Part shown: positions 42,107 to 52,082 of the stretch, piece by piece | How the letters are laid out: every line of letters begins with the position of its first letter | Numbering within the stretch: position 1 is the first letter of the stretch | DNA from: an uncultured Phycisphaerales bacterium | Lineage (GTDB): Bacteria > Planctomycetota > Phycisphaerae > Phycisphaerales > UBA1924 | DNA length: 64,000 nt | Assembly (NCBI GenBank): GCA_937995595.1 | Contig: CALKJW010000027.1 | Coordinates: 1-64,000 of the forward strand | Direction of reading: 5' to 3' | Program-made: the position numbers and the translations under genes | The notes under the pieces: model-generated | What the model saw: the letters and a program-made list of their open reading frames with translations, nothing else | Told to the model about the DNA's origin: nothing | Database searches by the model: none

Positions 42107-44104
42107 TTGCTTGAACGGTCGTATTACTCCGACTTGATCGGTACCTTTCTCGGCAGGTCAGAGTCCGAGATACTCGGCACGTTGTCGCGCCGCAGCACGT
42201 TCGCCGACCACCCTTCCCAGAAGGCAGCGTGGGCTGATCAGATACGCATCTTGAAGGGCGTGCTCGGTCGGCATCGAGAAGCGTGGTCCGGTGGCAAGGT
42301 CTACTTCGAGTTCGACGTACCACGGATGGGCAAGCGAATCGATGTGGTCGCGGCGATCGGCCATGCCCTCTTCGTGCTGGAGTTCAAGGTAGGCGGCACC
42401 GAGTTCGCGCCGAGCGCGATCGACCAAGTGTACGACTACGCCCTGGACCTCAAGCACTTCCACGAGACGAGTCACAGGCTCATCATTGCGCCGATTCTGG
42501 TTGCGACTCAGGCACAAGCGGCGCCTCTTACGATCGAATCAACATCGCACGACGATGGCCTGCTCGTACCACTCCGGGCTACTCCGGGGACACTCTGCGA
42601 GATCATCGAGAGGGTGCTCGCTGCGCGCAAGGGTCCGTTGATTGACCTCGCGCAGTGGGAGCAGGGTCGATACTGCCCAACACCCACGATTGTCGAGGCC
42701 GCTCTCGCGCTCTATGGGGGCCACTCTGTGGAGTCGATCTCACGTAGCGATGCCGGCGCAATCAACCTGAGCCAAACATCCAGAACAATCTCGACTGTGA
42801 TTCGCGATGCGCGGGACAACAACCGTAAAGCCATCTGCTTTGTCACGGGGGTGCCCGGTGCTGGAAAGACCCTGGTTGGTCTGAATGTCGCAACACAGCA
42901 CAGCGATCCGTCCAGTGCCCTGCACAGTGTCTTTCTATCCGGCAATGGCCCGCTCGTGCGGGTGCTCCGCGAAGCCCTCGCGCGCGACAAGGTGAACCGC
43001 CTCGCGACGGCTGGCAGGCGGGTACGTCTCGGTGCCGCCCGCAGCGAAGTTCGCGCATTCATTCAGAACGTTCACCACTTCCGCGATGAGTGCCTTCGGA
43101 ACGAGCGTCCTCCAGTTGACCGAGTCGTCCTTTTCGATGAGGCCCAGCGGGCTTGGAACCGTGAACAAACAGCATCGTTCATGCGACGGAAGAGAGCACA
43201 GGCTAACTTTTCAGCGTCGGAGCCTGAGTTCTTGATCTCCTGCATGGATCGCCACAGTGATTGGGCGGTAATCGTGTGCCTTGTTGGCGGCGGACAGGAG
43301 ATCAACACGGGCGAAGCCGGAATCGGAGAGTGGATCGCGGCCTTGCAGCGGTCTTTCCCACACTGGCACGTATACATATCGCCACGCCTTCAAGATGCCG
43401 AGTACGGCGCGGGACTGGTGTTGAGCGAGCTGGCGGCTCGGTCCAACGTGACATGGAGCGCGGACTTGCACTTGGCCGTGTCGATGCGATCCTTTCGCGC
43501 AGAGAATGTCTCTGCGTTTGTCAAGGCTGTCCTCGATCGAGAGCGCTCTCAGGCGCAGAGGCTGCTTGACGAACTGAATGCGAAGTACCCGATCCGTCTC
43601 ACTCGGGACTTGAACCTCGCAAAGCAATGGCTGAAGCGGCAAGCACGCGGAACGGAGCGATACGGACTCGTTGTGTCTTCGCAGGCCTTGAGGCTCAAGC
43701 CGCACGCCATCGATGTTCGCTCTCCGACAGACCCGGTCCACTGGTTCTTGTACCCAAAGCAGGATGTGCGGTCATCCTACTACTTGGAGGACGCGGCAAC
43801 AGAGTTTGACGTGCAAGGGCTGGAACTGGACTGGTCAGGCGTAATCTGGGATGGCGATTTGCGGCCGCTCGCGAATGGATCCGGCTGGTCGCACCACTCG
43901 TTCGTTGGAACTCGATGGCACAGGATCAACAAGCCCGAGTCGCAGACCTATCTCAAGAATACCTATCGAGTACTTCTGACGCGCGCAAGACAGGGCATGG
44001 TCATCGTCGTCCCTCGGAGCGACCCCGATGACCCGACTCGCGCGCCAGACGTTTACGACCCGACATTCGAGTACCTGCAATCCATCGGGATCAGGCCGTT
44101 GTAG
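42107..44104 (+). CDS. DUF2075 P-loop protein with PD-(D/E)XK-like nuclease N-terminus
   Basis: 665-aa two-part protein. Residues about 65-140 look like a PD-(D/E)XK nuclease core (KRIDVVAAIGHALFVLEFKVG: Asp79, Glu92-x-Lys94). The second part is the DUF2075/Schlafen-type helicase-like ATPase: Walker A FVTGVPGAGKTLVG (about 248-255), Walker B VVLFDEAQRAW (344-347), and the C-terminal motif-VI-like KNTYRVLLTRARQGMVIVVP. TTG 42107 with GGAG about 8 nt upstream is the start. The gene and its surroundings are visibly less GC-rich than the rest, suggesting transfer. DUF2075 proteins occur in defense islands, so an anti-phage or restriction role is plausible but unproven. Confidence 0.88.
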   Translation: MLERSYYSDLIGTFLGRSESEILGTLSRRSTFADHPSQKAAWADQIRILKGVLGRHREAWSGGKVYFEFDVPRMGKRIDVVAAIGHALFVLEFKVGGTEFAPSAIDQVYDYALDLKHFHETSHRLIIAPILVATQAQAAPLTIESTSHDDGLLVPLRATPGTLCEIIERVLAARKGPLIDLAQWEQGRYCPTPTIVEAALALYGGHSVESISRSDAGAINLSQTSRTISTVIRDARDNNRKAICFVTGVPGAGKTLVGLNVATQHSDPSSALHSVFLSGNGPLVRVLREALARDKVNRLATAGRRVRLGAARSEVRAFIQNVHHFRDECLRNERPPVDRVVLFDEAQRAWNREQTASFMRRKRAQANFSASEPEFLISCMDRHSDWAVIVCLVGGGQEINTGEAGIGEWIAALQRSFPHWHVYISPRLQDAEYGAGLVLSELAARSNVTWSADLHLAVSMRSFRAENVSAFVKAVLDRERSQAQRLLDELNAKYPIRLTRDLNLAKQWLKRQARGTERYGLVVSSQALRLKPHAIDVRSPTDPVHWFLYPKQDVRSSYYLEDAATEFDVQGLELDWSGVIWDGDLRPLANGSGWSHHSFVGTRWHRINKPESQTYLKNTYRVLLTRARQGMVIVVPRSDPDDPTRAPDVYDPTFEYLQSIGIRPL

Positions 44105-44230: not shown

Positions 44231-46243
44231 TCACCCCGCCCCGGGCATGTGCTTCTCGATCCAGTCGTCGTGACGCAGCACGTCGGCGCGCATGCGGCGG
44301 CCGCGGGCCTCGGCCCGGCGCTGCGCGACGCGGAAGACCGCCAGCGCCTGCCGGCGGGCCGCGCCCGAGAGTTCGTCGGACCCGGCGATGGCGCGCAGGT
44401 ACCCAAGCAGGCCGGGGGTGTGGTGGCGGACCAGTTCGTCCTCCAGCGAGACAAAGAGCTGCGACGAGCCGGGGTCGCCCTGTCGCCCGGCGCGGCCGAT
44501 GAACTGCCGGTCGATGCGCTTGGCCGAGTGCATCTCGGTGAGGATGACGTGCAGCCCGCCGTGCTCGCGCGACTCGCGGTCGAGTTTGATGTCGGTGCCG
44601 CGGCCGGCCATGTTGGTGGCGACGGTGATCGTCCCGTGCCTCCCCGCCTGAGCGACGATGTCGGCCTCGTCCTTGTCGAACGACGCGTTGAGGACGCGGT
44701 GCACGAGGCCGCGCGCGGTAAGCCGCGACGCGAGCAGTTCCGAGGCCTCGATCGAGCGCGTGCCGACGAGCACGGGTCGGCGCCGGCGGTGCAGGTCGGC
44801 GATGGAGTCGACGACCGCGTTCCAGCGCGCCTCGCTGGTGCGGAAGACGCGCGTGGGATACTTCACGCGGGCCAGCGGCCGGTTGGTCGGCACGACGGTG
44901 ACGGGCCGCTCGTACACGCGCTGCATCTCGCCCGAGGCGTCGGCCGCGGTGCCGGTCATGCCGCACAGGAACGGGTAGGACCGGAAGAACCGCTGGAAAC
45001 TCATGCGCGCCAGCGTCTCGCGGTCGGCGGTAATCTCGAGGTTCTCCTTGGCCTCGACGGCCTGGTGCAGGCCGTGCTCCCACGAGCGGTCGGGCAGGAA
45101 GCGGCCGGTGTACTCGTCGACGATGACCACGCGGCCGTCGACGATCTGGTACTGGTGCCCGTTGAGGTAGCAGTGCCTCGCGACCAGCGCCTGGCGGACC
45201 AGTTCCTGCGCGCGGCGCGTGGCCCGCCAGATGGGGTCGGCCAGCGCCTCGGCCAGTTGCGCCGTGCGGTGCTCGCCGCGCCGGGTCAGTTCTGCGCGCC
45301 TGCGCAGGTGGTCGATGGTGTAGTCGGCCTTGGCGTCGAGTTTGCGCGCGATCTCCGCGGCGTCCTTGTAGATCGCGGCCATGTCGTCCTCGCGCCGGGC
45401 GCGGGCGATGATCAGCGGGACGACGCCCTCGTCGATCAGCACGGCGTCGGCCTCGTCGACCAGGCAGGCGCGCAGGCCGGGGATGAGCGGCCCGCCCGCG
45501 CCGGGGTGCGACGCGCCCGCCGCGCCCCCGCCGCCGCGCGAGAGCAGCGCGCGGCCGGTCCACGCGGTCGAGAGCTGGCCCAGGCGGATCTGGTCGCGGA
45601 GCCAGTCGGCGGTGATCTGCTTGGGCGTGCCGTAGACGATGGCGCGGGAGTAGATCGGGGCGCGGTCGCGCTCCTCGACGCTCTGGGTGATCGCGCCGAC
45701 GTCGCACGCGCAGCGCCGGTAGATGCCCGCGCGGCTCTCGGCGTCGCGGGCCGCGAGGTAGTCGTTGACGGTGAACACGTGCACGTGCTTGTGGCGCCAG
45801 GCCAGGGGCACCGCGGCGATCGAGCCGGTGAGCGTTTTGCCCTCGCCGGTGACCATCTCGACGATGCGGCCCTTGTAGAGCGCGACCGCGCCCATGAGTT
45901 GGACGATGTACGCCTCTTCGCCCGTTTCTCGCCGCGCGACCTCGCGCACGCACGCGAACGCCCGGCGCACGAGGTCGTCGTCGGCCCGGCCGCGGACGAA
46001 CAACTCGCGCACGGTGCGCAGCACGTCGTCCAGCGCGCGGTCGGAGTGCGTCTTGAGGTCGGGCGCGAGCGCGTCGATGCGCTCGGCCTCGCGGCGGAGG
46101 TAGCCCAGCGTCACCCGCGCGTGGCGGATCTTCATCGCCGCGGTCGCGGCGAGCAGGTCCAGCCCCTTGCGGTTCTCCGGCTTGCGCCGGCGGCTCCGCA
46201 GCGACTCGAACAGGGCGTGGTAGCGGGTGACGGTCTGGGACAT
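44231..46243 (-). CDS. Accessory SecA-like translocase ATPase (short)
   Basis: 670-aa SecA homologue. It has MVTGEGKTLTG (Walker A, 130-140), CLVDEADAVLIDEG (DEAD, about 260), the preprotein-binding and IRA-side core (VIVDEYTGRFLPDRSWEHGLHQAVEAKE), CGMTGTA, TVATNMAGRGTDIKL, and QFIGRAGRQGDPGSSQLFVSLEDEL (motif VI). It ends shortly after the ATPase core, without the zinc-finger tail and with a reduced helical scaffold, so it is some 150-200 aa shorter than housekeeping SecA. A glycine-rich insert lies at about 235-252. ATG 46243 is chosen over 46282. It follows HlyD/M50 genes on the same strand, suggesting a specialised export ATPase. Confidence 0.93.
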   Translation of the reverse strand: MSQTVTRYHALFESLRSRRRKPENRKGLDLLAATAAMKIRHARVTLGYLRREAERIDALAPDLKTHSDRALDDVLRTVRELFVRGRADDDLVRRAFACVREVARRETGEEAYIVQLMGAVALYKGRIVEMVTGEGKTLTGSIAAVPLAWRHKHVHVFTVNDYLAARDAESRAGIYRRCACDVGAITQSVEERDRAPIYSRAIVYGTPKQITADWLRDQIRLGQLSTAWTGRALLSRGGGGAAGASHPGAGGPLIPGLRACLVDEADAVLIDEGVVPLIIARARREDDMAAIYKDAAEIARKLDAKADYTIDHLRRRAELTRRGEHRTAQLAEALADPIWRATRRAQELVRQALVARHCYLNGHQYQIVDGRVVIVDEYTGRFLPDRSWEHGLHQAVEAKENLEITADRETLARMSFQRFFRSYPFLCGMTGTAADASGEMQRVYERPVTVVPTNRPLARVKYPTRVFRTSEARWNAVVDSIADLHRRRRPVLVGTRSIEASELLASRLTARGLVHRVLNASFDKDEADIVAQAGRHGTITVATNMAGRGTDIKLDRESREHGGLHVILTEMHSAKRIDRQFIGRAGRQGDPGSSQLFVSLEDELVRHHTPGLLGYLRAIAGSDELSGAARRQALAVFRVAQRRAEARGRRMRADVLRHDDWIEKHMPGAG

Positions 46244-46313
46244 TGGATAACAGCAAAGAGGGAAACCGGCAAAGCAGCACATGGAGAGGCGTCGCCGCGG
46301 ATCGACGGCCGAC

Positions 46314-46676
46314 TCAACGGCCGCGGCGCTTGGTCCGGGCGATCATCGAGCCGCCGATGGCTCGGAGTTCCGCGGACTCGTCGATCAACGCCCGCAGCCG
46401 AGACTCTCTGATCCACCCTCGACGGCCGATGAAGCGAAGCCAGTATCGAGTCTCGGCAAGTTCGCGCAGCGCGATGCCGATCGGGTTGCAGAAATCGGCG
46501 CGGCTCAACGCCTCGTCGGCCTCGCAGAAGTTCGCGCCCACGGACGTCCCGGCGGCGACCACCTGTTCGACCACTCGGTGAAAGCGACCCTGACGATCGA
46601 TCTCCTCTCCGACGTCGGTCACACGATCCGCGAAGCGCTCGACGCGCTCGATCAGGTCCGGTTGAAGCCTCGCCAT
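46314..46676 (-). CDS. Four-helix-bundle protein (S23/IVP-like, TIGR02436)
   Basis: 120-aa helical protein of the family named after 23S rRNA intervening-sequence proteins. LIERVERFADRVTDVGEEI, VVAAGTSVGANFCEADEALSRADFCNPIGIALRELAETRYWLRFI and ALIDESAELRAIGGSMIAR match the family pattern. AAGGGA lies 7 nt before ATG 46676. Such proteins form pentameric bundles of unknown function and recur as small accessory genes. Here it sits between the M50-HlyD gene and secA, about 70 nt from each, in the same direction. Confidence 0.88.
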   Translation of the reverse strand: MARLQPDLIERVERFADRVTDVGEEIDRQGRFHRVVEQVVAAGTSVGANFCEADEALSRADFCNPIGIALRELAETRYWLRFIGRRGWIRESRLRALIDESAELRAIGGSMIARTKRRGR

Positions 46677-46743
46677 CGTTCATCCCTTCACGCCCCGCCC
46701 AGGCACACCTGCTGCTCTGCTGCTTTGCTCGATCTGCCGGTGT

Positions 46744-48921
46744 CTACAACTGCACCCGCCCCTGCATCTCCTTCTGCAGGCGGTCGAGCCATTGCGTCGC
46801 CAGCGGGCGGCGGGGGAGTTCGAAGCGCACTTTCACGCGTTCGCCGGGGAACGCCGCGGCGATCAGTTCGTCCGGGTTGTCGGCCTCGATGCGCACCGGG
46901 AACCACGGGCGCTTGGTGACGCGCCCCGACTCGTCGCGCATCTCCGGCTCGGCGCGCCCGCCGCCGGCGAAGGTCAGCGCCGCGCTGGGCATGATCGTCT
47001 GCCCCGCCTCGACCGACGGCACGCCCACGCCCTCGATGAGCGTCGACGGGCTGGAGTAGAACCGCACGCTCACGGGCAGGCCGGCCTTCTCGCGCCCCTC
47101 GAACAGCCACGCCGCCTGGCGCTGGTCCATCACCGCGACGACGCGGAGGCGAGACGGGTCCACGACCTCGCAGACGGGGTCGGCCCGCTTGAGGAACCCG
47201 CCGCGCCGGGATTCAAGGTCCGCCCCGGCGATCACGCCCGCGTGCGGCGCGCGGACGACCAGGTCGGCCTGCATGCGCCGGACCTCGTCGAGATTCTCCT
47301 GCGCCACGCGGATGCGCTCCCGGGCGATCTGCACCGCGCCCATCTCCCCCGCGGCCCGCGCCGAGCGCTCCTGCACGCGGAACTCCTCGAGCTGGGCGAT
47401 GATCGCGTCGGCCCGCTTCTGCAGTTCCGGGTTCACCAGCGTGACGATCGGCTCGCCGGCCTCGACCCGCTCGCCGGGGCGCTTGTGCACCGTCTCGATG
47501 AACCCCTCGGACAGGAAGTACAGCGGCGTGCGGTCCAGACTCTCGACGATGCCCTCGCCGCGCCGCCGGTCGGGGAAGGGCACCATGCCCAGCGCGACCA
47601 CGACCAGCGCGACCAGCGCCAGGCTGATGCCCCAGCCGCGCAGGCGGTGCTCGGCGTGCTGCGGGCTGGCCGCGTGCCAGTGGATGAACTTGCCGATCGG
47701 GATGACGAACCAGGCCGAGGCCGTCCACACCGCCAGCAGCAGGCCGATGGCGAAGAGTTTGCCCATCACGTAGAGCGTGATGGTGATGAACAGGAAGATT
47801 CGGTAGGCCAGCGCGGCCAGCCCGTAGACGACGAGGATCGCCTGCTCGCCGCGGAGCGAACTGGGCGCGGTCAGGTTCCGCAGGCGGTAGACGTACTTCT
47901 GCATCAGATGCATGAGCATCTTGTTGGAGCGCTGGGCGAGGTTGGGGACCTCCAGCCAGTCGGCCAGGATGTAGTAGCCGTCGAACCGCATGAGCGGGTT
48001 GGCGTTGAAGAGCACCGTCGAGATGCTGGCGGTGAGCATCGCGTTGTAGGCGAGTTTGGTGGCCAGGTCGCCGGGCTGGCCCGAGACCCACACGAACGCC
48101 GCGACCGACGCGACCGCGAGTTCGAAGATCATGCCGCCGGCGCCGACGGCGACGCGCTTCCACTTGCTGGGGAAGGCCCAGCACGCCGAGGCGTCGACGT
48201 AGGGCGATGGGAACAGCACCAGCAGCATCACGCCGAACTCGGGCACCTGCCCGCCGAACCGCTTGCACAGCACGCCGTGCCCGAACTCGTGGATCGCCTT
48301 GGTGACGACGAACACGATGCCGACCCACACCCACTGCGCCGGGTCGCCGCGCAGATCGTCAAAGCCCTTGACCAGCCGGTCCCACTCGGGCAGGACGGTG
48401 ACCAGCGCGGCGACGAGTAGCGCGCACCAGGCGAGGAAGCCCCAGATGTTCAGGATCGGGCGGATCACCGGCTCGGCCAGCGTGAGCAGCCGGTCGGGGT
48501 TGAACAGCCTGATCTTGAAGTACATGATGCCGATGGCCTGGGCCGCGACCTTCTTCTTGACGCGCTCGCGCCCGCGCCGGAGCAGCTGGTCGGTTTCGGG
48601 CGTGGTGTCGCACGAGAGCAGGTTTGCCGAGTACAACTGGCTGATGAGTTGGATGACCTCGTTCTGCGTCGGCGCCATGTCGCCGAACTTCTGCAGCGAG
48701 GCCTTCCACGCCTCCTCCACGCCGCGCGCGCCGTCGAGCATGCCGACAAAGTCGTTGGCGATGGGGTTGAGGCGGTAGAACTGGTTGCTCGTCGGGTCGT
48801 GCACGACGTGCCACCGCCGCCCGCGGTACTGCTGGCGCGTGACCTGCACGTGCGGACGAAGCCGCGGCTTCATCAGCCGGACGCGGTGCCAGAAGGGAGA
48901 GAATGTGGGACGTTCGTTCAT
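46744..48921 (-). CDS. PqqD-M50-HlyD export protein (putative peptide zinc metalloprotease type)
   Basis: 725-aa membrane protein. Residues about 20-105 form a PqqD-like winged helix (HVVHDPTSNQFYRLNPIANDFVGMLDG). Membrane helices start at about 155 and enclose the site-2-protease motif TKAIHEFGHGVLCKRFGG (HEFGH 211-215) and NPLMRFDGYYILADWLEV (313-317, second metal site). After several more helices comes a HlyD/biotinyl-lipoyl region (LSEGFIETVHKRPGERVEAGEPIV, about 470 onward). The layout equals the putative peptide zinc metalloproteases of peptide-export systems. It lies 93 nt after the GAF-HlyD gene; an AT-rich inverted repeat is in the gap. Confidence 0.9.
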   Translation of the reverse strand: MNERPTFSPFWHRVRLMKPRLRPHVQVTRQQYRGRRWHVVHDPTSNQFYRLNPIANDFVGMLDGARGVEEAWKASLQKFGDMAPTQNEVIQLISQLYSANLLSCDTTPETDQLLRRGRERVKKKVAAQAIGIMYFKIRLFNPDRLLTLAEPVIRPILNIWGFLAWCALLVAALVTVLPEWDRLVKGFDDLRGDPAQWVWVGIVFVVTKAIHEFGHGVLCKRFGGQVPEFGVMLLVLFPSPYVDASACWAFPSKWKRVAVGAGGMIFELAVASVAAFVWVSGQPGDLATKLAYNAMLTASISTVLFNANPLMRFDGYYILADWLEVPNLAQRSNKMLMHLMQKYVYRLRNLTAPSSLRGEQAILVVYGLAALAYRIFLFITITLYVMGKLFAIGLLLAVWTASAWFVIPIGKFIHWHAASPQHAEHRLRGWGISLALVALVVVALGMVPFPDRRRGEGIVESLDRTPLYFLSEGFIETVHKRPGERVEAGEPIVTLVNPELQKRADAIIAQLEEFRVQERSARAAGEMGAVQIARERIRVAQENLDEVRRMQADLVVRAPHAGVIAGADLESRRGGFLKRADPVCEVVDPSRLRVVAVMDQRQAAWLFEGREKAGLPVSVRFYSSPSTLIEGVGVPSVEAGQTIMPSAALTFAGGGRAEPEMRDESGRVTKRPWFPVRIEADNPDELIAAAFPGERVKVRFELPRRPLATQWLDRLQKEMQGRVQL

Positions 48922-48947
48922 CGCCGGAGTCGGGAGTCGGACAACCT

Positions 48948-48964
48948 AGATAATATAACTATCT
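48948..48964. promoter_or_regulatory. AT-rich inverted repeat in the export cluster
   Basis: AGATA/TATCT (48948-48952 and 48960-48964) around ATATAAC, in an otherwise GC-rich gap. On the minus strand it contains TATTAT and TATATT, so it could be a secondary promoter or operator in front of the M50-HlyD gene (start 48921). No matching -35 is evident. Confidence 0.4.
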
Positions 48965-49014
48965 TGCCTGCGTGTGCGCATCCTCCGGCCGCCCGCTTCC
49001 CCCTTCCCGCCCCA

Positions 49015-51027
49015 TCACCACCACCACATCCGCACCGCGTCGATGATCCGGCGCGAGCCGATCCACAGGAGCGAGTGCCGCTGCGTGTCGAACTTGGCGA
49101 TGCCCTCCATCCCCGGCCGGAACCACTCCGGCGCGCCGTCCAGCACCGCCCGCACCTCGTACACGTTCTTGCCCTCCGCGGCCTGCGCCAGCGGGACGAT
49201 CCGCTCGACGGTGAAGTCGATCGGGTCGGCCGGGTTGCTCTTGGTCGCCACGGCGCCGCGCGCGTGCCGGCCCTGCCGGCGCGCCTCGTCGAACGCCCGC
49301 CGCACCAGCGCGATGTCGCGCTCGTCCACCTTGGCCACCAGCACGACGTCGTCCATCGACGCGACCTGGAACATCGGGTCGCCGAGTTTGAGCGTCGAGC
49401 CCACCCGCTCCTTGATGTCGCCGGCGATGATCTCGCCGTCGATCGGCGCGACCACGCGGCACCGCTCGATCCGGTCGCGGTACGCGTCCGCCTCGGCACG
49501 CGCCGCCTTGGCCTGCTCCTCGAACGCCGTCGCCTTGGTCAGGTCGCGCTCCAGCCGCGCCGCCGCGGCCGACTTCTCGGCCTGCTGCAGCTTCGCCTCG
49601 GCGCTGGCCAGGCTCAGGCGGTACTCGGTGTCGTCGAACTGCGCCAGCAACTGCCCCGCCGCGACGCGCACGCCCGGCTCGATGCCCGGCGCCAGCGACT
49701 TCAGACGCGCGTCGAAGGGCGCGGCGACGATCCGCCGCACGCGCGGCTCCAGGTGCGCCTCGGCCCCGACGCGGTAGGTCTTGTGGTACACCGTCACGAA
49801 CACCAGCGCCGCCAGCAGCGCGACCCCCGCGACCTTCCACACCGTGTGCCTGGGGCCCACGGCCCACGCCGCGGCGTGCACCGCGCTGTCCCAGGCGCGC
49901 ACCGGCAGCCAGCGGTCGTCGCTGCGACGCAGGCGGAGCACCGGCGCGACCAGGTCCATCGCGGCCTGCAGCAGTTCGACCGTGTTCAGGTCGATCGGCG
50001 TGTCGCTGGCCGTCTCCAGCAGCACCACGCCCACCACGTCGTCGTCGATGCGCAGCGGGAGCGAGCACAACTTCAGCCGCGCGTTGCCCGAGGCCAGTTC
50101 GCGGTGCGCGTGCACGATCGACTGGGCCAGCAGCACGTCGCCGCCGGGGCCGTCGGCCGCGGGCTGCGGGTAGACGATCGGCTGCTCCTGGTCGAGGCAC
50201 TCGTCCATCGCGGCCTCGATCCGGCCGACCATCGCCATGCGCCGGTCGAAGTGCTCGGTGTCGCTGATGGCCTGCGCGCGGACGGCGTCGCGCCGGACCC
50301 ACCCCAGCGCGACGCGGTCGAGCGCGAACTGCCTGGCGAGTTCGTTGACCAGTTGCAGGCACGCGCCCTTGAAGTTGGGCGCGGTGTTGATCGACGCGAT
50401 CAGCCGGGTCGCCAGGTCGAGCGCGAACGACGCGGTCTGCGTCCGGCGCAGCGCCTGCCGCGCCGCGTGCCCGTGCACGTAGCCGCAGAGCACCTCGGCC
50501 ATCGCCAGCGTCGAGCGGATCGCGTCCTTGCCGCGCGGCTCGATCAGCAGCGTGACCACCGAGACCACCTGCTCGCCCGCGGGCCTGCCCGGCGCGGCGG
50601 GCGCGGGCGCGCGGACCGGCACCGCCAGCACGCACCCCTGCGAGCCGCCCCCGTCGTAGTACAACTCCTGCTTGTCCAGCGAGTACACCCGCGCCTGCCC
50701 GGACGAGAACGCCGAACGGGCCGCGCCGTGCACCTCCTGCGGGAACTCGACCCCCTTGGCCTTGTCGGCCTTGGGCGCGCCCGGCTCGTCGGGCAGCACC
50801 GTCGCCGCGCCCGGCGGGGGCGCGGGCCAGACCAACTCGACCCGCGGCTCGATCTCCTCGCCGTCGGCGCGCTCGGGCGCAAAGAGCACGCCCTGGCGCG
50901 CCGCCGTCACCTGCGACACGATCCGCAGCAGGCGCTCGAGGAACGCGCGGTCGTCGGGCGCGGCGGAGTTCAGTTCCGCCACCACCTGCTGCCAGCCGGG
51001 CGCACGAACGTTCGACAGATCGATCAC
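49015..51027 (-). CDS. GAF-HlyD fusion protein
   Basis: 670-aa protein combining sensing and export parts. Residues about 25-160 and 205-360 look like two GAF-type domains (ERLLRIVSQVTAARQGVLFA; LVNELARQFALDRVALGWVRRD...LPLRIDDDVVGVVLLET). A single membrane helix follows at about 397-415 (VWKVAGVALLAALVFVTVYH), then a HlyD/membrane-fusion-protein region with barrel-sandwich and coiled coil (AAPFDARLKSLAPGIEPGVRVAAGQLLAQFDD, ASAEAKLQQAEKSAAAARLERDL, CRVVAPIDGEIIAGDIKERVG). GTG 51027 overlaps the upstream stop by 4 nt. It is probably a periplasmic adaptor with a cytoplasmic ligand sensor. Confidence 0.88.
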   Translation of the reverse strand: MIDLSNVRAPGWQQVVAELNSAAPDDRAFLERLLRIVSQVTAARQGVLFAPERADGEEIEPRVELVWPAPPPGAATVLPDEPGAPKADKAKGVEFPQEVHGAARSAFSSGQARVYSLDKQELYYDGGGSQGCVLAVPVRAPAPAAPGRPAGEQVVSVVTLLIEPRGKDAIRSTLAMAEVLCGYVHGHAARQALRRTQTASFALDLATRLIASINTAPNFKGACLQLVNELARQFALDRVALGWVRRDAVRAQAISDTEHFDRRMAMVGRIEAAMDECLDQEQPIVYPQPAADGPGGDVLLAQSIVHAHRELASGNARLKLCSLPLRIDDDVVGVVLLETASDTPIDLNTVELLQAAMDLVAPVLRLRRSDDRWLPVRAWDSAVHAAAWAVGPRHTVWKVAGVALLAALVFVTVYHKTYRVGAEAHLEPRVRRIVAAPFDARLKSLAPGIEPGVRVAAGQLLAQFDDTEYRLSLASAEAKLQQAEKSAAAARLERDLTKATAFEEQAKAARAEADAYRDRIERCRVVAPIDGEIIAGDIKERVGSTLKLGDPMFQVASMDDVVLVAKVDERDIALVRRAFDEARRQGRHARGAVATKSNPADPIDFTVERIVPLAQAAEGKNVYEVRAVLDGAPEWFRPGMEGIAKFDTQRHSLLWIGSRRIIDAVRMWWW

Positions 51028-52082
51028 GCCCGCGCCTCCTCGCCCGCACCACGCGCGCACCCCAGGTCGAAACTCTCCGGGTTCTTGATCGCCGGACGCT
51101 CCGGCCACAGGCGCGGCGCGGCGGACTGGCTCGGCCCGGCCGGCGCGCCGCCGTCGGGCGTCTGCGCCCAGTTGCCCCCGCCCGCCGGCGGCCCCGACAG
51201 ACGCACCCGCGCCTGCGTGCCCGCCGGCCAGTTCGCCGGGTTGTCGATCTCCACCCGCACGCGGCGCGACTGGCTCACCGGGTCGGCCACCGGGTCCACC
51301 TCCACCACGCGGCCCTCGATCATCACCGGGCGGTCGGGCACGTCGACCAGCACCCACGCGCGCCCGCCCTCGCGCACGCCCAGACGGATCGTCTCCTCCG
51401 TGCCCACCCACGCGTCGAGCCACAGCCGGTCGGTGTTCACGATCCGCAGCGCCTTCTGCTGCTCGTTCACGCCCTGCCCGGCGTCGACGTACACCTGCGA
51501 GACCACGCCGTCGAACGGCGCGACCAGGCGGTAGCGCTCCGCCTGGGCCTCGAGCTGGCGCAGCCGAAGTTCCTGCTGGTCGCGGTTGAACTTCGCCACC
51601 TCGTGCTGCACCCGCGCGGTCAGCATCTGGATGCGCAGTTCCTCGAACTCGCTGGGCGCGAAACTCCCGCCGCGCTTCAACTGCTCGAACCGGAACTCGG
51701 CCAACTGGCTCGCCAGCAGCGTGCCCTGCACCTCTAGGTCGTTGCTCGCCAGCGAGCGCTGCTGTTCGAGCGCGGCGACGACCTCGGCGTCCCGCGCGCG
51801 CATCAGCACCTCGTCCTTCCTGACCCGCTGCCCGCCCTTGACCAGCACCTCGCGCACCTCGCTGGCGAAGGTGAACGACATCGTCGCGTCGCGGCTCGGA
51901 CGCGTCTCCGACTTCACGCCCCCGAACGCCTCGGCCACGGCGTCGAAGCGCGGCGACATCGGCACGTGGTCGCCGGGCTGCCGCGGGGTCGCCCGCGGCG
52001 CACCGTACACCAAACACGCCCCGGCCAACGGCGCGCACAGGGCCACAATGCCGATCGACAAGGCCTTCTTCATGTCGCCCAT
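51024..52082 (-). CDS. HlyD/MFP-type periplasmic adaptor
   Basis: 352-aa exported adaptor protein. A signal sequence or lipid anchor (MKKALSIGIVALCAPLAGAC) is followed by the lipoyl half (SFTFASEVREVLVKGGQRVRKDEVLMRARD), a long coiled coil (VVAALEQQRSLASNDLEVQG...RVQHEVAKFNRDQQELRLRQLEAQAERY), the second lipoyl half (LVAPFDGVVSQVYVDAGQGVNEQQ) and beta-barrel strands. The C-terminus is proline-rich. Start is ATG 52082, or ATG 52073 three codons later. First gene of the leftward export cluster, coupled to the GAF-HlyD gene. No RND or ABC transporter is adjacent. Confidence 0.88.
   Translation of the reverse strand: MGDMKKALSIGIVALCAPLAGACLVYGAPRATPRQPGDHVPMSPRFDAVAEAFGGVKSETRPSRDATMSFTFASEVREVLVKGGQRVRKDEVLMRARDAEVVAALEQQRSLASNDLEVQGTLLASQLAEFRFEQLKRGGSFAPSEFEELRIQMLTARVQHEVAKFNRDQQELRLRQLEAQAERYRLVAPFDGVVSQVYVDAGQGVNEQQKALRIVNTDRLWLDAWVGTEETIRLGVREGGRAWVLVDVPDRPVMIEGRVVEVDPVADPVSQSRRVRVEIDNPANWPAGTQARVRLSGPPAGGGNWAQTPDGGAPAGPSQSAAPRLWPERPAIKNPESFDLGCARGAGEEARA

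Follow-up and report, generated by a model that had tools for sequence, protein, structure and literature searches.

An operon in a 64,000-nt stretch of DNA from an uncultured Phycisphaerales bacterium (assembly GCA_937995595.1, contig CALKJW010000027.1, positions 1 to 64,000; here called the window) probably encodes an exporter of proteins with an N-terminal LEPR-XLL domain, many of which are giant RTX, Ig or cadherin repeat proteins. LEPR-XLL (NCBIfam NF012209, 24 positions) is a short domain at the N-terminus of large repeat proteins. Its connection with the operon is well supported by genome comparison; export, cleavage and the source of energy are what we infer for the system. The exporter is most likely type-1-like and centred on a protein that joins an M50 peptidase to a HlyD adaptor (M50-HlyD), with a wing-less SecA as a clamp or motor. 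The locus is a further copy of the secondary SecA_DEAD domain locus of Kamneva, Poudel and Ward (2015, PLoS One, PMC4452313). The first-pass annotation of this DNA had called the system a candidate for an undescribed one and without an obvious substrate; the first statement is wrong and the second is not supported. What is new in this analysis is a cargo candidate, the LEPR-XLL proteins, for a locus without an assigned function.

The co-inheritance of M50-HlyD and LEPR-XLL recurs in three orders. The M50-HlyD gene is present in 93 of the 151 genomes of the window's order (E<=1e-10), and a LEPR-XLL match (E<=0.1) was found in 86 of these 93 genomes versus 6 of the 58 without M50-HlyD (Fisher 7.7e-26; like the P values below, this overstates the association, since the genomes are related and not independent). 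The six matches without M50-HlyD are weak (E 0.008-0.086), and at E<=0.01 the counts are 73 of 93 versus 1 of 58. The family to which the window belongs has LEPR-XLL in 33 of 34 genomes with M50-HlyD and in 1 of 12 without it. The order of Pseudooceanicola nanhaiensis (G153; 196 genomes) has LEPR-XLL (E<=0.01) in 13 genomes, strong M50-HlyD matches (E<1e-75) in 9 and both in 8, that is, LEPR-XLL in 8 of 9 strong M50-HlyD genomes versus 5 of the 187 others (P 2.4e-10). A stricter threshold of E<1e-150 gives 8 of 8 versus 5 of 188, the common threshold adding a single genome (G357). In the order of Roseateles cellulosilyticus (G193; 200 genomes), LEPR-XLL is present in 27 genomes, strong M50-HlyD in 25 and both in 21 (21 of 25 versus 6 of 175; P 2.4e-19). 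Counting all M50-HlyD matches, the proportions are 10 of 18 versus 3 of 178 in the first of these two orders and 26 of 42 versus 1 of 158 in the second. A control family, proteins that carry the type 1 target domain T1SS_VCA0849, is present in 31 of the 200 genomes of the Roseateles order and was not associated with M50-HlyD there, whether strong matches (1 of 25 versus 30 of 175, P 0.14) or all matches (6 of 42 versus 25 of 158, P 1.0) are counted. Type 1 secretion system (T1SS) cargo in general was also considered as the linked cargo and was ruled out, because this control family does not co-occur.

LEPR-XLL genes also lie beside the locus. A scan of named genomes gave a best 80 loci, of which 50 were submitted to the adjacency analysis and 49 genomes were searched (L153 was left out). 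LEPR-XLL was above the cut-off in 46 of the 49, usually once or twice per genome. In 31 of the 49, all outside the window's order, the distance to the core is no more than 3 kb, with both on the same strand in 30 cases. The adjacent open frames are 4,500 to 14,400 codons long in 29 of the 31. The script itself reported 36 of 49 within 6 kb, matching by coordinates only and not by contig names; four loci were dropped for a contig or strand mismatch (L149, L163, L174, L201) and one for its distance of 5.1 kb (L172), and L203 was taken as divergent, judged from the open reading frame (ORF) in the locus. Taken together, the orders of Pseudooceanicola and Roseateles have 33 of 84 M50-HlyD places on the same contig as LEPR-XLL, with 31 of the 33 within 8 kb and 29 on the same strand.

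Individual loci have the same arrangement. A plasmid relative, Pontibrevibacter, has a gene of 31.8 kb with the annotation 'LEPR-XLL domain-containing protein', which directly precedes the genes for DUF3467, GAF-HlyD, M50-HlyD, SecA and HlyD. Genes of 38.2 kb in Pseudosulfitobacter and 26.5 kb in Methylosinus occupy the equivalent place, and their N-termini carry ETFEPRVLLSAD and DTLEPRVLLNAD; the Methylosinus locus additionally has TolC. Eight N-terminal stretches, picked because the motif was visible, all pass the NF012209 cut-off. The locus of Methylobacterium extorquens AM1 is given as META1p2399-2402 (PMC4452313), and a 15,831-aa repeat protein, META1_2412, is placed in genomic island 2402-2415 (PMC2680597). 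This pairing would fit the LEPR-XLL reading if META1_2412 bears the motif. A Vibrio LEPR-XLL/RTX protein of about 8,000 aa is mentioned in PMC10868602.

The operon spans positions 44231-52082 of the window and consists of five leftward genes in tandem. The ORF list and the Pfam and NCBIfam searches confirm the genes and domains that the first-pass annotation had named:

51024..52082, minus strand: free HlyD periplasmic adaptor; ATG start at 52082 or 52073; N-terminal signal peptide MKKALSIGIVALCAPLAGACLV
49015..51027, minus strand: GAF-HlyD protein, with an N-terminal GAF region, one transmembrane segment (395-413) and a C-terminal HlyD part
46744..48921, minus strand: PqqD-M50-HlyD hub protein of 725 aa, with a PqqD-like wing (about 26-98), a membrane part of about seven hydrophobic helices, and a HlyD barrel that has a short hairpin
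46314..46676, minus strand: 23S_rRNA_IVP (four-helix-bundle) gene between the M50-HlyD and SecA genes (PF05635 3.2e-14, TIGR02436 4.6e-18)
44231..46243, minus strand: short SecA of 670 aa, with NBD1, PPXD, NBD2 and the first scaffold helix, without helical wing, two-helix finger and C-tail

The free adaptor matches HlyD_D23 (6.8e-15) and HlyD_3 (9.4e-15) in Pfam, and its hydrophobic segment covers residues 7-25 (Kyte-Doolittle hydropathy 2.28). Its stop is overlapped by 4 nt by the GTG start of the GAF-HlyD gene, whose product has a single transmembrane segment and matches GAF (1.3e-8) and HlyD_3 (9.5e-11). The hub protein matches PqqD (1.3e-7), Peptidase_M50 (3.5e-6; 27.0 bits, slightly below the cut-off of 27.2), HlyD_D23 and HlyD_3. 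Its HEFGH (211) and FDGYY (313) motifs are intact, which, like the 4-nt overlap, agrees with the earlier description. The SecA matches SecA_DEAD (1.7e-79), P-loop_SecA and PP_bind, and Pfam gave no SecA_SW match in it. Its start is more likely at 46243 than at 46282, to judge from the sequences, because the protein of a relative begins MSQAVTRY at that place. The DUF3467 gene of some relatives is not at the window's locus. The window genome (3.1 Mb, 55 contigs) encodes a second, canonical SecA on another contig (G000:C20), so the short SecA is not its only one. A Schlafen group 3 helicase gene (SLFN-g3, 4.3e-82) lies at 42107-44104 of the window, convergent with the SecA gene. A Pfam scan of the five operon genes and of this downstream helicase gene found no ABC exporter among them.

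The 23S_rRNA_IVP gene is an insertion in the operon and not a component of the system, because it has no counterpart at the 59 related loci of the window's order (E<=1e-5, ORFs of at least 80 aa); the window is the only place where it was seen. The rest of the set is a module that is conserved far above chance. Of the 59 M50-HlyD loci of the window's order, 57 have GAF-HlyD and 47 have short SecA next to the M50 gene, and at 47 there is a HlyD match no more than 8 kb away from it. A short-SecA match was found in 90 of the 151 genomes (E<=1e-60), a count in which a few matches are longer frames of canonical size. Twelve loci of the order lack an adjoining SecA. Eleven of these genomes, all from one family (f6), encode a short SecA elsewhere that is 48-53% identical to the window's, and the twelfth (G038) gave no short-SecA hit, its locus being cut at a contig end. 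Two loci have larger SecA frames: a long-frame SecA, probably canonical, lies beside the M50-HlyD locus of G052 (L040:12883-16995), with the short SecA elsewhere, and a canonical SecA lies inside an unusually long open frame of 1,551 codons at L034:1953-6608.

Among the 80 named loci, GAF-HlyD, M50-HlyD and SecA follow one another in this order on one strand in 72, several of the remaining 8 being cut by contig ends. These loci come from Alpha-, Beta-, Gamma- and Deltaproteobacteria, Nitrospira, Omnitrophota and one Myxococcota bin, and they lean to Proteobacteria since the first sequence of the scan alignment was proteobacterial. GAF-HlyD is on its own ORF in 77 of the 80 (a count of 80 of 80 includes cross-hits), and the [FY]DGY motif of M50 is present in 74. 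The idea of one set of five, put forward at first pass, thus holds for a conserved module and fails for the helical-bundle protein. Neither of the two outcomes named there as fatal to the module idea was observed: the genome has another SecA, and the neighbours are conserved in relatives. SecA, M50-HlyD and GAF-HlyD do stay together, and the fixed extra gene that was expected to supply the channel was not found at the related loci. Clustering of the flanks yielded for the most part ORFs that overlap the core genes, and it was set aside. A DUF3467 gene, whose product we guess to be a possible chaperone, precedes GAF-HlyD in 27 of the 80 named loci (e.g. L130:17848-18129, L132:17738-18079) and occurs at 13 loci of the window's order. 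TolC-like matches were found at 3 of the 80 named loci, and some relatives have TolC-like genes (L133, L177, L189, L213).

The earlier account of the locus (PMC4452313) lists it from Planctomycetes, Verrucomicrobia, Proteobacteria, Nitrospirae and Chlorobi, with a canonical SecA elsewhere in the genome. As in the window, a SecA without SecA_SW lies beside M50-HlyD, GAF-HlyD and HlyD genes. The authors propose a link to type 1 secretion, with SecA as the ATPase and M50 as a possible pore, and state that the wider biological role of the locus is unknown. Unlike the present analysis, the portion of that article used here names no cargo, signal or LEPR-XLL link and reports neither a class without short SecA nor SecAs without ATPase motifs. 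In the open-access literature, the scope of our search, which lay outside most subscription papers and bioRxiv preprints, no paper linking LEPR-XLL to this locus was found.

Among known systems, type 1 secretion (HlyB-HlyD-TolC) is similar in its HlyD adaptors, in the TolC of some relatives and in its large RTX cargo. It differs in that no ABC exporter was seen beside the core here, where a SecA-like partner and an M50 protease are found instead, and in that its signal is C-terminal whereas the signal proposed here is N-terminal. A second SecA in the genome is also a feature of the Gram-positive accessory SecA2 systems. SecA2 in some cases serves large surface proteins; it keeps the wing and scaffold and works with SecY or SecY2. 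In contrast, the window SecA is without wing and finger and has M50-HlyD as its partner. It also scores below the cut-offs of the SecA2 models (TIGR03714, 430.7 of 930 bits; TIGR04397, 465.6 of 1085; TIGR04221, 401.1 of 725; NF012136, 370.6 of 1100). Pairwise, it is 41-47% identical to five short SecAs of other groups over 528-625 aa, and it aligns to the canonical SecA of its own genome at 46% over 190 aa and 33% over 171 aa. The daptide and LiaK M50 proteases (NF041824, NF058609) are related in sequence to the window M50 protein, which is additionally fused to HlyD. The LEPR-XLL family (NF012209) is the cargo family proposed here, and the one-line description of its model names no exporter.

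The AlphaFold2 model of the short SecA (pLDDT 89.4, pTM 0.89) keeps the preprotein clamp and lacks the helical wing, the two-helix finger and the C-tail. Solved SecAs such as 3jv2 (Z 43.3, 577 residues, rmsd 6.0) are matched only as far as about residue 613 of the B. subtilis protein, and the chain stops early in the long scaffold helix. A similar extent is seen in SecA-N68, a truncated E. coli SecA (5k9t, Z 38.8). The ATPase motifs of the window SecA are intact and the C-tail is absent from the model, in keeping with the complete ATPase core without a tail first noted.

The model of the M50-HlyD protein (pLDDT 88.9, pTM 0.73) has an N-terminal PqqD-like wing and about seven hydrophobic helices, of which two score weakly for hydropathy. 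These are followed by a HlyD barrel with a short hairpin, matching adaptors of the AcrA/MexA type. A Foldseek search with the whole model, in which the membrane part was not searched alone, returned only HlyD-type adaptors among the matches listed. With an odd number of membrane crossings, PqqD would be cytoplasmic and HlyD periplasmic. Leader peptides are bound by PqqD domains in pathways of ribosomally synthesized and post-translationally modified peptides (RiPPs), and therefore a natural guess, by analogy, is that the PqqD-like domain may read the LEPR-XLL leader. Relatives of M50-HlyD that are 27% identical and annotated as HlyD adaptors occur on E. coli and Citrobacter plasmids (matches H36-H40).

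LEPR-XLL giants are also neighbours of a divergent class of M50-HlyD, with about 26-31% identity (e.g. G278, G294, G487, G513, G573). Three of its loci (L219, L220, L225) comprise TolC, HlyD, a second HlyD and M50-HlyD; the same kinds of gene form two divergent groups in L222, and L221 and L223 have fewer parts of the set. Further divergent M50-HlyD loci, likewise with no SecA match in the locus, are L224, L226 and L228. Because this class without short SecA adjoins LEPR-XLL giants too, M50-HlyD is the constant partner of LEPR-XLL proteins, and only one class has the short SecA as a dedicated partner.

The ends of the LEPR-XLL proteins were examined for export signals. In 42 N-termini, with start sites guessed, the median distance between the chosen start and the motif is 43 residues, and the residues that precede the motif carry a median net charge of +4.5. 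None of the 42 has a Sec-type hydrophobic core, defined as a 15-residue window of hydropathy of at least 2.0 (median maximum 1.0); the signal peptide of the window HlyD, the one control, scores 2.29 on the same measure. The last 500 aa of 10 giants gave no match to T1SS target models (E<=0.001), and Pfam found RTX repeats in 3 and a matrixin domain in 3 of the 6 of these giants that were scanned.

A type-1-like exporter centred on M50-HlyD could work as follows. The basic N-terminus with [FL]E.LEPR.LLSAD would serve as the signal for export and be recognized on the cytoplasmic side, perhaps by the PqqD-like domain of M50-HlyD. The short SecA would clamp the unfolded chain and pass it to the membrane part of M50-HlyD, using ATP where its motifs survive. 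M50 may cleave at or near LEPR-LLSA, and the HlyD parts of the three adaptors, together with an outer-membrane TolC that is not in the operon, would form the channel. The GAF domains may serve in sensing or regulation. In a wider sense, the locus could represent a separate kind of secretion system for LEPR-XLL proteins, chiefly the giants, with M50/PqqD/HlyD as receptor and gate, the wing-less SecA as a motor that clamps the chain or, where the ATPase motifs are lost, as a passive clamp, and a divergent form without SecA; this is put forward tentatively, with rather less than even confidence.

Several observations weigh against an exporter of LEPR-XLL proteins of this design. The P values are inflated by relatedness, as said, and the association has exceptions: 7 of the 93 M50-HlyD genomes of the window's order and 4 of the 25 in the Roseateles order have no LEPR-XLL match, and the ninth strong genome of the Pseudooceanicola order (G357) has a short SecA and no LEPR-XLL match. 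At the 59 loci of the window's order (10-20 kb each), a LEPR/IEPR motif was seen at two (L045, L055) and LEDR/LEQR at three. The window genome itself has cargo candidates based on short motifs, only two above the cut-off and none giant. NF012209 is above its cut-off at 2 of 6 listed places there: a protein with a Por_Secre_tail/PPC-like match, next to a divergent gene that carries LEERRLLF, and a subtilase, which has LEARVMLN. A cyclophilin bearing LEARMLLD scores below it, and the candidates also include one protein without a domain match. The window's locus gave no match to TolC. The divergent loci (L219-L223, L225) have no SecA match in the locus while the class adjoins LEPR-XLL giants, and L219, the one divergent M50-HlyD protein scanned, has no PqqD by Pfam, which weakens PqqD as a general LEPR-XLL reader. 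Finally, five uncut SecA homologues have none of the Walker A, DEAD-box and arginine-finger motifs. Adjacency of LEPR-XLL was rejected as evidence in the window's own order, where it is rare (no chance expectation was computed) and only co-occurrence holds; further close LEPR-XLL/M50-HlyD pairs among the matches listed there are in G020, G085 and G106.

Kamneva's suggestion leads to the closest rival, a true SecA-powered secretion, with the short SecA as its only motor in place of the type 1 ABC ATPase and the M50 membrane domain as the pore. Among 46 genomes, chosen and not drawn, a second SecA lies beside M50-HlyD in all 16 with the close class, versus a single SecA of canonical length in all 30 with only the divergent class or no M50-HlyD (E<=1e-50, a threshold at which strongly decayed SecAs would be missed). 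Of the 69 uncut SecA genes at named loci, 62 keep all three ATPase motifs (Walker A, DEAD-box and arginine finger), and the annotations of L130, L132 and L133 show no ABC exporter immediately next to the core (sugar-type ABC genes lie about 5 kb from the core in L132). These results favour a SecA motor. However, two SecAs (L195, L204) keep part of the ATPase motifs and lack the arginine-finger pattern, and the five without any motif (L161:11793-13265, L162:12167-14101, L169:12055-13845, L181:11826-14078, L217:7306-8940) are still encoded next to GAF-HlyD and M50-HlyD. All but L181, which ends in FAG, have FSGR at the C-terminus, Pfam recognizes SecA domains in all four that were scanned, and a LEPR-XLL giant is adjacent in L169 and L181. 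The SecA ATPase is thus not needed throughout the family. The wing and two-helix finger are missing as well, and the divergent class has no short SecA. The first-pass proposal that SecA supplies the energy fails for the whole family because of the five motif-less SecAs and the divergent class, the window SecA itself keeping its motifs. A SecA-powered system of this kind is possible but somewhat doubtful.

A second rival is that the module processes or anchors LEPR-XLL proteins after ordinary Sec or T1SS export, with M50 cleaving and the HlyD parts holding or releasing the giant at the surface. Lap-type systems, which hold adhesins at the surface, are a model for this. The HE..H motif of M50 is kept in all 80 named loci, even where the SecA ATPase motifs are lost, and the GAF region would suit such a role. 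A C-terminal motif, [ILV]xW[GSDTEAN], is present in the last 80 residues of 16 of 31 upstream giants (L130-L215) versus 89 of 1128 blocks (7.9% background), and as it was picked after looking it is only a lead. Against anchoring, the 42 N-termini offer no Sec-type core and the 10 giant C-termini no T1SS target model, and several adaptors together with TolC in some loci suggest a conduit. We consider anchoring unlikely. A RiPP-like peptide maturation and export, with the LEPR-XLL link as a by-product of shared mobile islands, is very improbable: the window M50 protein does resemble the daptide intramembrane protease (NF041824; 1.5e-49) and LiaK, and PqqD binds leaders, but the LEPR-XLL linkage holds in three orders with a negative control family, and RiPP cargo was rejected, without a systematic search for small precursor genes, on scores below both curated cut-offs (169.2 bits against 300 for NF041824).

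Bacterial proteins of 5,000 to 15,000 residues rank among the largest known. With a named N-terminal motif, genes that are closely partnered and organisms that have a single locus and a single giant, two questions become testable: how giants that lack a usual signal leave the cell, and what the locus described in 2015 does. SecA homologues that lack the ATPase motifs yet are kept in place could reveal other roles of SecA.

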